64,000 bases of DNA. Origin: Candidatus Thiodiazotropha sp. (ex Monitilora ramsayi). GTDB lineage: Bacteria > Pseudomonadota > Gammaproteobacteria > Chromatiales > Chromatiaceae. The notes under the pieces were generated by a model. The model had not been told where the DNA came from, did no database searches, and was given only the letters and a program-made list of their open reading frames with translations. Positions 49,973-53,531 of the stretch are shown here, one piece after another; positions within the stretch are counted from its first letter, which is position 1, and each line of letters opens with the position of its first letter. The DNA lies in NCBI GenBank assembly GCA_025655595.1, contig JAHXIO010000011.1:372001-436000 (forward strand), read 5' to 3'. A program made the position numbers and the translations under genes.

Positions 49973-50410
49973 TCAACTCTCAAGCCAGAATGTCACCGGC
50001 CCATCGTTCACCAGCGCGACTTGCATGTCAGCACCGAACTCGCCACATGCAACATCCTGATAGGTCTTTTTGGCATGCGTCACCAGATGGCCGAACAGTC
50101 GCTCACCCAAGCCGGGATCGGCGGCAGTGGAGAAGCCCGCCCTTGTCCCCTTACGGGTATCTGCAGCCAGGGTGAATTGAGGTACCAGGAGGAGACCGCC
50201 ACCGACAGTCTGCAGACTGAGATTCATGCGGCCTGTCTCGTCGGGAAAGACGCGATATCCCAACAGCCGATCCAACAGGCGCTCGGCTGTGGCTTCATTA
50301 TCCGTCTTCTGCACACCGACCAGCACCACCAATCCCCGCCCGATCCCACCGACGGACCGGCCGTCGATCGTCACGCATCCTTCAGTGACCCGCTGCAGCA
50401 ACCCAATCAT
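49973..50410 (-). CDS. dtd: D-aminoacyl-tRNA deacylase
   Basis: Dtd removes D-amino acids mischarged on tRNA. The 145-residue protein from the ATG at 50410 shows MIGLLQRVTEGCVTIDG, the SQxxL-equivalent region LLLVPQFTLAADTRKGTRAGFS, and the C-terminal NDGPVTFWLES motif with cross-subunit Gly-Pro. The frame extends upstream, but only into pip. Its ATG overlaps the pip stop by four bases (ATGA), indicating translational coupling. Confidence 0.95.
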   Translation of the reverse strand: MIGLLQRVTEGCVTIDGRSVGGIGRGLVVLVGVQKTDNEATAERLLDRLLGYRVFPDETGRMNLSLQTVGGGLLLVPQFTLAADTRKGTRAGFSTAADPGLGERLFGHLVTHAKKTYQDVACGEFGADMQVALVNDGPVTFWLES

Positions 50411-51357
50411 CCCAGCTCCCGTGCGAACCTGTCGGTAGTCTCGATCAGTGCCTTTCGGATGCCGGGCTCCGTAGCCGAATGTCCGGCATCGGGAATCACC
50501 ATCAGTTCGCTCCCCGGCCATGCCTGATGCAGTTGCCAGGCGGAATCCATGGGACAGATCAGGTCATAGCGTCCCTGCACAAGTACACCGGGGATCCCAT
50601 TGAGTTTATGCGCATCCTCCAGCAACTGGTTGGGACGCAGAAAAGCGTGATTGACGAAGTAGTGGCTCTCGATGCGGGCCAGGCTCATCGCGGTTCGAGG
50701 CTGGGAAAAGAAGTCAACGACGGAGCTGTTGGTGTGAAGGCTGGAGGTTCTCCCCTCCCAGATCGACCAGGCTTTGGCCGCGGCCATTCGCTTCAACTCA
50801 TTATCTCCAGTCAGTCGACGGTGGTAGGCTTCAAGCAGATTGCCCCTCTCACTCGCTGGAATTGGTGCAAGGTACGCATCCCAATAGTCGGGAAAGACCC
50901 TGCTGGCGCCAGACTGATAGAACCAGTCAATTTCGGTATCTCGGCAGAGAAAGATCCCGCGCAGTACCATCCCGATCACCCGATCGGGGTGTCGTTGGGC
51001 ATAGGCCAGCGCCAATGTGGATCCCCAGGAACCGCCAAACAGCAACCAGCGATCGATGCCGAGTGTCTGACGAATCGCCTCGATATCGTTGACCAGATCC
51101 CAGGTGGTGTTGTTCTCAAGACTGGCATGAGGTGTTGAGCGACCACAGCCTCGCTGATCGAACAACACCACACGGTAGGCGTCAGGATCGAAAAACCGGC
51201 GATGATAGGGCTCACAACCGGCACCCGGGCCCCCGTGCAAAAAAAGGATTGGGATTCCTTCCGGGTTTCCCACCTGCTCGATATAGAGCTGATGCCCACC
51301 ATCCACACTCAGTTTCTGGGTGGTGTATGCCTCGATTGGAGGGTATAAATCTTTCAT
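50407..51357 (-). CDS. pip: Proline iminopeptidase
   Basis: Pip removes N-terminal proline from peptides. The 316-residue alpha/beta hydrolase shows LFLHGGPGAGCEPYHRRFFDP, the nucleophile elbow GGSWGSTLALAYAQRHP (Ser about 107), the catalytic Asp near VQGRYDLICP and the His in DAGHSATEPG. It is read together with dtd. No strong ribosome site is seen before the ATG. The divergent small RNA candidate begins about 90 bases upstream. Confidence 0.94.
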   Translation of the reverse strand: MKDLYPPIEAYTTQKLSVDGGHQLYIEQVGNPEGIPILFLHGGPGAGCEPYHRRFFDPDAYRVVLFDQRGCGRSTPHASLENNTTWDLVNDIEAIRQTLGIDRWLLFGGSWGSTLALAYAQRHPDRVIGMVLRGIFLCRDTEIDWFYQSGASRVFPDYWDAYLAPIPASERGNLLEAYHRRLTGDNELKRMAAAKAWSIWEGRTSSLHTNSSVVDFFSQPRTAMSLARIESHYFVNHAFLRPNQLLEDAHKLNGIPGVLVQGRYDLICPMDSAWQLHQAWPGSELMVIPDAGHSATEPGIRKALIETTDRFARELG

Positions 51358-51375
51358 TTTCAGTCACATATACCG

Positions 51376-51393
51376 TGTAGGAAAATTCCTACA
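51376..51393 (+). promoter_or_regulatory. GacA-box-like palindrome
   Basis: TGTAGG-AAAATT-CCTACA is an 18-base palindrome with a six-base spacer. The known GacA site upstream of Rsm small RNAs is TGTAAG-N6-CTTACA, so it differs by one symmetric base per half. It lies about 60 bases before the proposed start of the small RNA. A second dyad, GTGA-AAATTC-TCAC, follows at 51401-51414. Confidence 0.6.
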
Positions 51394-51446
51394 TTGATAG
51401 GTGAAAATTCTCACACCCGAGTTGTGAATTTTTGTGTAATCATTAA

Positions 51447-51577
51447 ATCGTCGTCATCAAGGACGTACCCCCAGGATCACATACGCACAGGAGGGCATCA
51501 GGGAAGATAAGCTTTGCCAACCAAGCCGACGACCATAAGCCCGACTGCATGGAATGCCGTCGGGCTTTTTCTTTTTG
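51447..51577 (+). ncRNA. Candidate RsmY/RsmZ-type CsrA-binding small RNA
   Basis: The 241-base pip-typA gap has no plus-strand gene but ends in a strong plus-strand terminator. The stretch from about 51447 holds GGA motifs as CAAGGACG (51458-51465), CAGGAT (51472-51477), CAGGAG (51488-51493) and CAGGGA (51499-51504), plus ATGGA in the terminator loop. The block ATCAAGGACG resembles RsmZ of pseudomonads. A near-consensus GacA box lies about 60 bases upstream, and TGTAAT (51435-51440) could be the -10 box. I infer an RNA that sequesters the translation regulator CsrA/RsmA. The 5' end is approximate. Confidence 0.6.
51538..51576 (+). terminator. Rho-independent terminator of the candidate small RNA
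   Basis: AGCCCGAC pairs with GTCGGGCT, then GCAT with ATGC, around a GGA triloop, followed by TTTTTCTTTTT. The T run is only on the plus strand, so it does not serve the minus-strand typA gene. Confidence 0.88.
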
Positions 51578-51598
51578 TATCTAAATTTGTCGGCTGTA

Positions 51599-53410
51599 TC
51601 AGCTTCGTGCGGCACGCTTGCGTTCGTGCTCCTTCAAGTACTTCTTTCGGATTCGGATCGCGCTCGGGGTCACCTCCACCAGTTCATCATCCTCGATAAA
51701 CTCCAATGCCTGCTCCAGACTATAGCGCAGGGGCGGCGTCAACATGATGGCGTCATCCTTACCTGCTGCGCGGATATTGGTCAGCTGTTTTCCTTTCAGC
51801 GGGTTGACCACCAGATCATTTTCACGTGCATGGATACCGACAATCTGTCCCTCGTAGACCTCGTCGCCCGGTTGCGAGAAGAGTCTGCCACGCTCCTGCA
51901 GATTGAACAGGGCGAAACCCAGCACCTTGCCCTGACCGTTGGAGATCAGCACGCCATTCTTTCGCGGCGCAATACCACCATGGGAGGCCGGTCCATAGTG
52001 GTCGAAAACATGATAGATCAGACCCGTACCCGAAGTGCTGGTCATGAATTCGGTCTGAAAACCGATCAGACCCCTGGACGGAATGATGTAATCGAGCCTT
52101 ACTCGCCCCTTACCGTCGGGCACCATATCCTTCAGATCCCCTTTTCTCTCACCCAGCGCCTCCATAATGGATCCCTGATGATTCTCCTCCACATCCACGG
52201 TCAACTGCTCGTAGGGCTCGCAGACCTCTCCATCGATCTCACGAAAGATCACCTCCGGCCGGGAAACCGCCAGCTCGAATCCCTCGCGACGCATCGACTC
52301 GATCAGCACCGAGAGATGCAGTTCACCGCGGCCGGAAACCTTGAACTTCTCCGGATCGGTGCCCTCCTCCACCCGTAGGGCCACATTGTGGATGAGCTCC
52401 CGCTCCAGGCGCTCCTTGAGCTGGCGGGAGGTGAGATACTTCCCCTCACGCCCGGCAAAGGGCGAGGTGTTGACTTGAAAGGTCATGGAGACGGTGGGCT
52501 CGTCCACACTCAGTGGCGGCATCGCCTCCACGTGTTCCGGATCACAAAGGGTATCCGACACATTAGGGGCCTCCAGGCCGGTAACGGCGATGATATCCCC
52601 TGCAGAGGCCTCCTCGACCTCAAAGCGCTCCAGTCCGAGATAGCCGTAGACCAGACCCACCTTCGCCCGCTGCTGTTCACCGTCATATTTGACGACAGTG
52701 ATTTGTTGGTTGGGGCGGATCTTGCCACGGGTTACGCGACCGACTGCGATGGCACCCACATAGCTGTTGTAGTCCAGATTCGACACCTGCATCTGAAATG
52801 GTGCCCCGGGATCCACCTCGGGCGCCGGACAGTGTTCAACGATGGTTTCGAACAGAGGCGTCATGTCACCAGCGCTGACATCGCTGTCGAGTCCGGCAAA
52901 GCCATTGATTGCCGATGCATATACGATAGGAAAATCGAGCTGCTCATCGGTGGCGCCCAACTGATCAAACAGCTCGAACACCTGGTCCACCACCCAATCG
53001 GGACGGGCCCCCGGCTTGTCGATCTTATTCACAACCACAATGGGACGCAGCCCGTGTTTGAAGGCCTTCTGGGTCACAAAGCGGGTTTGCGGCATCGGTC
53101 CCTCCTGGGCGTCTACCAGCAACAGTACCGAGTCGACCATGGACAGCACTCGCTCCACCTCTCCACCGAAATCGGCATGACCGGGAGTATCCACCACGTT
53201 GATGCGGTAATCCTTCCACCGGATAGCTGTGTTCTTTGACAGGATGGTGATGCCGCGCTCTTTCTCCTGATCGTTGGAGTCCATCACCCGCTCCACCACA
53301 CCAAAACGCTCACCCAGGGTGCCGGATTGCTTTAACAACTCATCCACCAATGTGGTCTTACCATGGTCGACGTGAGCAATGATTGCGATATTTCTGAGAG
53401 ACTGGATCAC
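51599..53410 (-). CDS. typA: Ribosome-associated GTPase TypA/BipA
   Basis: TypA is a translational GTPase that helps 50S assembly and growth under stress. The 603-residue protein shows G1 [16 protein letters not shown]3 [16 protein letters not shown] and G4 [18 protein letters not shown]-like domains and the TypA-specific C-terminal region ([32 protein letters not shown]) follow. The GTG at 53410 gives the family N-terminus [17 protein letters not shown]; a TTG five codons earlier is also open. Confidence 0.97.
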
Positions 53411-53531
53411 GGGGATATCCTGCAAATTAAGGAGCGCGGATTATACCTAGTTGGGGATAATTGTCCGTTATATTTTAAAATCATAGTTTCAACATAGAGT
53501 TAGCAAGGTTTCGTAGAATCATTAAGACAAA

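Follow-up and report, generated by a model that had tools for sequence, protein, structure and literature searches.

Does the gap between pip and typA in the genome of Candidatus Thiodiazotropha sp. (ex Monitilora ramsayi) encode a regulatory RNA, and if so, does that RNA act only as a decoy for the CsrA protein? The original prediction, made on the 64,000-nucleotide stretch analysed here (the window), had read a GacA-type palindrome, a possible -10 box, GGA motifs and a terminator in this gap as an RsmY/RsmZ-like RNA that titrates CsrA/RsmA. Csr sponges are known as protein decoys, and a csrA-pairing site within a sponge would, if true, add a second tier of regulation; the CsrA protein and its synthesis may both be under the control of one RNA. 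Such an sRNA would also offer a handle on the symbionts of lucinid clams, whose csrA ranks first among shared top transcripts (PMC13137333).

A small RNA gene in the pip-typA gap

The gap had been placed correctly: matches to TIGR models put pip and typA on the minus strand on either side of it, and between them lies an unannotated plus-strand sRNA gene of about 127 nt (approximately 51450-51576), with a putative 5' end. The features of the locus, and the second copy of the gene in the same genome, are as follows.

50407..51357, minus strand: pip, prolyl aminopeptidase, divergent neighbour (TIGR01249, 428.9 bits)
51376..51393, plus strand: GacA/UvrY box TGTAGGAAAATTCCTACA, starting 74 nt before the GUCG of the RNA
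51401..51415, plus strand: second half-box GTGAAAATTCTCACA, degenerate, conserved in the genus and lying about 22 bp past the first
51441..51446, plus strand: candidate -10 CATTAA (TATTAA in relatives), suggested by promoter alignment
51450..51576, plus strand: sRNA (126.8 bits, E = 4.1e-24 with covariance model R1, itself built from this copy and related sequences)
51450..51455, plus strand: closing helix, 5' strand GUCGUC (5 of 6 pairs changed on both sides; 98.1% of cells paired)
51461..51463, plus strand: GGA 1 (AAGGACG)
51474..51476, plus strand: GGA 2
51490..51492, plus strand: GGA 3, invariant in alignment A1 (32 sequences)
51502..51504, plus strand: GGA 4
51512..51527, plus strand: csrA-pairing element CTTTGCCAACCAAGCC, a perfect 16-nt complement of the same genome's csrA leader
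51528..51533, plus strand: closing helix, 3' strand GACGAC, pairing with 51450..51455 (covariation and hexamer complement)
51537..51567, plus strand: intrinsic terminator hairpin whose loop contains GGA 5 at 51551-51553 (12 of 12 pairs changed on both sides, 81 sequences)
51599..53425, minus strand: typA/bipA, convergent neighbour, conserved synteny (TIGR01394, 955 bits)
G000:C2:607896-608022: second sRNA copy, with its own GacA box, between folK-like and DUF1015-like genes (by eye)

The palindrome TGTAGG-N6-CCTACA is present at 51376-51393 as claimed, with AAAATT as its spacer, and it is the single site of the form TGTARG-N6-CYTACA in the window, none arising in 100 dinucleotide shuffles. Across the whole genome seven sites fit the box pattern versus two for the reversed pattern, a count that misleads because the other six comprise the second sRNA copy (one), sites in what by eye resembles a dispersed repeat (four) and one remaining site. 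A GacA regulon read from such boxes was dropped, four of these six sites sharing a flank that by eye is a dispersed repeat. In this box-mimicking repeat, likewise judged by eye (G000:C1:364629, C4:15593, C12:81369 and C26:8628; L103, L105, L107 and L108), TGTAGG-N6-CCTACA is succeeded by GACAAC and then, at some distance, by CATCTTT; similar copies are found in the close relatives G005, G014 and G018.

Among relatives, the box of the sRNA is in some cases the literal TGTAAG-N6-CTTACA, and an asymmetric form, TTTCAG-N6-CCTACA, is used in many genomes. Within 160 nt upstream, 48 of 79 model hits have a box of at least 10/12; on the downstream side the figure is 4 of 79, including in one case the box of the next tandem copy. 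Model R1 includes no upstream DNA. The box starts 72-75 nt before the RNA in 38 of those 48 hits, while the other ten start 51 (two), 88 (one), 95-96 (three), 115 (two), 150 and 152 nt before it; the offsets of 51, 95-96 and 115 are near whole helical turns from 73, but 88 is not. Alignment of 46 family promoters places a CCYACA-like half-site of low information 22 bp past the first right half, and position 27 is G in 91% of them. The predicted -10 box stands less firmly, for promoter alignment yields CATTAA as a candidate but a simple promoter scan found none.

The GGA motifs had likewise been read correctly, with four in the body (at 51461, 51474, 51490 and 51502) and one in the terminator loop (51551), three of the five being ANGGA. 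Taken singly, this RNA is unremarkable: 181 of 2000 dinucleotide shuffles reach five GGAs and its fold energy is within chance (z = -1.31), so comparison with relatives had to decide. Counted over the 58 RNAs whose box scores 9/12 or better, the window's among them, GGAs number 331 versus 205 in dinucleotide shuffles, and 253 of the 331 are ANGGA. An exact complement of the RNA's own first six bases recurs in 44 of the 58, where 11% would be expected from RNAs with another hexamer, a result that depends on no alignment. The closing helix and terminator show matched changes in 24 of 28 pairs (covariation score 0.432 versus 0.153 when shuffled) in an alignment of 81 sequences whose fitting to the model favours this outcome. 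Folding recovers the predicted terminator, a stem at 51537-51545/51559-51567 with a T-rich tail, though a simple terminator scan of the window missed it. One relative (G030, L027) carries an enlarged version of the RNA of about 198 nt, in which there are nine GGAs and the CCAACC element recurs internally as a near-copy.

Comparison across genomes thus confirms that the window holds an sRNA gene that has a GacA box upstream, GGA motifs at five sites and a terminator. All the features listed by the original prediction were found, although it had missed the second sRNA copy and the csrA-complementary element.

Family membership and distribution

The Rfam check proposed for RsmY, RsmZ and CsrB gave no match. 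At gathering score the window yields tRNA only; the covariance models for RsmY, RsmZ, CsrB and CsrC find nothing at E <= 10 in 51300-51650, and RF00195 has no match in the genome at E <= 0.001. SdsR was rejected as an identity, since this best Rfam match reached 20.8 bits against a cut-off of 38 and rested largely on the terminator. The sRNA is a separate sequence family that, judging from its sequence features, works like RsmY/RsmZ; because of the lack of an Rfam match we say that it 'works like', and not that it is a 'member of', RsmY/RsmZ/CsrB.

A DNA search located the sRNA in all 22 Candidatus Thiodiazotropha genomes, the present one included, and agrees with a search using model R1 (built from 32 sequences). 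R1 matches 51 of 96 genomes of the family, representing 33 of its 61 genera, and 12 of 369 genomes of the class, the weakest of which resemble chance. We set aside as chance-like the class hits in G237, G058, G338, G157, G193 and G225 (0-2 GGAs, no box of at least 10/12) and regard the family hits G452c, G452d, G406c and G024b (1-2 GGAs) as doubtful. The core pattern matched 50 GTDB records, of which 20 were examined; 15 look real, and those from Primorskyibacter, Bradyrhizobium, Ideonella, a Spirochaetales MAG and Silicimonas were rejected as chance-like, likewise having 0-2 GGAs and lacking a box of 10/12 or better. In relatives the GacA box, the GGA motifs and the terminator are all conserved, as the proposed comparison of related genomes had looked for.

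Gene order is also maintained. All 22 genus genomes have typA convergent and downstream of their first sRNA locus, and the same holds for 34 of 67 model hits tested, at a distance of 3 to 1385 bp, a count that omits one unrelated GTPase and for which many loci offered only 600-700 bp to inspect; the arrangement extends to G048 and G378, which belong to other families. A second sRNA locus is present in 21 of the 22 genus genomes (the exception being G006). The typA locus holds four copies in tandem in five genomes (G002, G008, G011, G013 and G016), including that of Ca. T. endoloripes, and a single copy in most others, a count omitting G009, whose contig begins at the RNA; this difference constitutes a natural dosage experiment.

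Two further records deserve mention. L195 (JAKISI010000029.1), titled Candidatus Polarisedimenticolaceae, carries a typical sRNA copy with a box, identical in its letters to the copy in G469, and the record is possibly mislabelled or mis-binned. In G027, which belongs to the family but lacks the R1 RNA, two adjoining stretches led by GacA boxes (L028:894 and L028:2023) are CsrB-like, with 12 and 13 GGAs in 330 nt, although RF00018 gives only 17 bits for one of them.

Csr and Gac components and csrA expression

A UvrY/GacA orthologue is encoded in the same genome, one gene from uvrC and with 52% identity to E. coli UvrY; its best match is the UvrY/GacA model NF007018, at 271.7 bits just under the cut-off of 280. 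A canonical csrA lies behind a lysC-like gene (by eye) and retains L4 and R44, which we take to be RNA-binding residues. FliW was not found in any of the 22 genus genomes. The 90 csrA leaders that were parsed have 1-6 GGAs in their last 60 nt, and autorepression by CsrA through its own leader is known in E. coli (PMC7652899). Given such autorepression and these leader GGAs, translation of csrA would tend to rise if the RNA acted purely as a sponge.

In Ca. T. endolucinida, csrA stands first in the table of top transcripts shared by three hosts, with median TPM of 85,248.5, 78,449.9 and 83,987.0, rbcS being higher in one host (PMC13137333); csrA is among the shared top transcripts in a second paper (PMC12172469).

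An element complementary to the csrA leader

The strongest conserved block of the sRNA is not a GGA motif but the 16-nt element at 51512-51527. This genome's csrA leader contains the reverse complement of the element, GGCTTGGTTGGCAAAG, at 81 to 66 nt ahead of the ATG, and 0 of 1000 shuffles of the element are as stable against that leader. The 12-mer GCTTGGTTGGCA has two occurrences in the draft genome, one within that leader and the other opposite the sRNA. All 18 genus leaders read, the present one among them (G017, unparsed, and G006, G011 and G013, in which canonical csrA was not found, are omitted) carry the block as GGCTTGGTTGGC, a near-invariant island in a variable leader behind a conserved -10. 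That -10 (TAGAAT/TAAAAT) lies upstream of the block at L226:1941-1946, minus strand, and in relatives; judged from it, the block and the 5' end of the mRNA would be about 20 nt apart in the present genome. Both partners are predicted to be partly paired within their own RNAs, the mean unpaired probability being 0.37 for CCAACC in the sRNA and 0.41 for the leader block. A toggle in the csrA leader (CCAGTC with GACTGG at the ribosome site) is not claimed, being seen in the genus but not across the family.

Across 59 genomes with both genes, perfect complementarity of at least 9 nt is found to the leader in 54, to upstream DNA in 3 and to the coding region in 10; with one genome per genus the figures are 27, 2 and 1 of 29. 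The longest perfect run averages 11.5 nt against the leader versus 6.5 upstream, 7.1 in coding sequence and 6.1 when shuffled. This test was devised after seeing the data, though on one target. Five of the 59 genomes fall below 9 nt (G032, G428, G468, G415 and G420). G032 has one csrA copy without the pairing block and another with it, G428, G468 and G415 form 11-15 pairs at the same leader place once G-U is allowed, and G420 and G428 reach a maximum of 8 nt in the one-per-genus comparison. The leader motif is present in 52 of 59 genomes with the sRNA versus 1 of 29 family leaders without an sRNA hit, an absence that may reflect clade and not function. The leader of G401 (L299) has the block about 116 nt before the start codon in a genome without an sRNA hit, which predicts a diverged sRNA there.

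Element and leader also change together. In G423 the sRNA has AATACCAACCAG and the csrA leader CTGGTTGGTATT, in G416 they have AAGCCAACCAAA and TTTGGTTGGCTT, respectively, G467/G427 carry matched changes on both sides, and G466 has a 17-pair run extending past the usual element. Five bases upstream of CCAACC, C stands opposite G in 11 genera and G opposite C in three. When leaders were swapped among 29 genera, the summed runs were 353 for own leaders versus 322 +/- 6 (0 of 20000 permutations), and own runs reach 10 pairs in 25 of the 29 (not in G428, G028, G461 and G420). At flanking positions in 24 genera, 170 of 336 pairs form versus 154 +/- 5 (63 of 20000 permutations); all these swapped-leader permutations ignore phylogeny. 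Earlier swap tests with some genera counted twice gave the same picture. In one of them positions were chosen by best match and 5 of 33 genomes were dropped for lacking the core on one side; single flank positions in the best-match-position test were mostly non-significant. For whole-length duplexes the summed energy beats all 20000 permutations, yet own and swapped leaders separate weakly (mean rank of own leader 14.1 of 36 where 18.5 is expected; top three in 6 of 36); these energies are noisy and so local runs were used.

Beyond the family, a 10-nt run is retained in G378 (equalled in length by 1 of 200 shuffles), 13 pairs including one G-U form in G049 (1 of 60 shuffles), and 9 nt are present in G048, where the core differs (10 of 200 shuffles). 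The CsrB-like RNAs of G027 (L028) have no complementarity to the csrA leader beyond chance. From the sequences of both partners, a conserved and covarying complementarity of the sRNA to csrA mRNA is shown.

Discussion

The titration reading gains support from the conserved box, GGAs and terminator, and from a genome with gacA and csrA in which FliW was not found; it appears incomplete, however, as the most conserved element is a complement of csrA mRNA. Very probably, then, the RNA is activated by GacA and serves both as a CsrA sponge and as a base-pairing partner of csrA mRNA. Phosphorylated GacA (UvrY) would bind the box and turn the sRNA on, as the box and the orthologue suggest; the sRNA would bind CsrA through several GGA sites, to which the conserved ANGGA motifs point, and so draw CsrA off mRNAs; and the 16-nt element before the closing helix would pair in cells with the csrA 5' leader near the predicted mRNA 5' end. 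We favour a negative sign, in which pairing would repress or destabilise csrA mRNA and produce a decisive switch, since lower csrA would cancel the rise in translation that comes from titrating an autorepressor.

Were there no gene here but a chance palindrome and GGAs in an intergenic gap, the GGA count and fold would look as they do when taken alone. Such a gap would not be conserved with covariation, give hits in 33 of 61 family genera, or show second copies, tandem arrays and a preferred box spacing; conservation has refuted this reading, which we consider exceedingly improbable. A plain RsmY/RsmZ-like sponge, in which CCAACC is a structural or stability site and the match to the csrA leader goes unused, would account for the sponge features, and in the consensus fold the CC pairs of the element can indeed fold onto the GG of two GGA motifs. 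Those internal CCAACC-GGA pairs (helices 2 and 4) show almost no double changes, however, whereas the element and the csrA leader vary in concert, and no more than chance complementarity is seen for E. coli CsrB and CsrC against the E. coli csrA leader and for RsmY of G195 against its own (7 nt). We judge the plain sponge improbable.

The main alternative reverses the roles, with the csrA leader regulating the sponge: the sRNA would be captured through its element and removed by abundant csrA mRNA, closing a feedback loop. The position of csrA at the head of the endolucinida table (PMC13137333) and that of the block near the predicted 5' end of a conserved leader are consistent with this, but TPM favours a gene of about 200 nt, and the text of that lucinid-symbiont metatranscriptome paper mentions no sRNA or small RNA. 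We regard it as rather unlikely, although it is compatible with a sponge that also pairs with csrA mRNA. A reciprocal circuit, in which the GacA-driven sponge is an antisense regulator of csrA and the abundant csrA leader titrates the sponge, is offered tentatively, at somewhat less than even odds; it would be conserved across the Sedimenticola/Thiodiazotropha family and may reach into other families (G378, G049 and G048).

Comparison with known Csr systems

Presumed titration of CsrA under UvrY control is shared with CsrB and CsrC of E. coli (PMC4682653). Those RNAs differ from the present one in length (369 and 246 nt) and in their number of GGAs (22 and 14), and the UvrY inverted repeat of csrB is centred near -183, unlike the box described here (PMC4682653). 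Pf1-Pf3 of Pseudoalteromonas are likewise recent new Csr sRNAs from a marine gammaproteobacterium, but their pairing with a few mRNAs is imperfect and predicted only, and it is a separate antisense RNA, sRNA0654, that is predicted against csrA mRNA there (PMC11882849). Among the matches listed by literature searches, with most subscription journals outside their reach, there was no report of a Csr sRNA pairing with csrA mRNA, and no such RNA among those listed for Thiodiazotropha csrA/gacA, Sedimenticola sRNA, Allochromatium CsrB or typA-CsrA-sRNA.

In size, in its several GGAs and terminator and in having more than one copy per genome, the sRNA resembles RsmX/RsmY/RsmZ of Pseudomonas, and its GacA box lies at a distance similar to that of RsmY (in G195 the box precedes the RsmY hit by about 77 nt). 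Unlike these RNAs, it has no Rfam match, a closing helix round the whole body and synteny with typA; unlike the RsmY of G195, it has a csrA-complementary element. McaS of E. coli is, to our knowledge, not a dedicated GacA-driven sponge. The targets named for McaS are csgD and flhD, not csrA, yet it offers a likeness in kind, combining CsrA sponging and base-pairing to mRNAs in a single RNA (PMC10729762).
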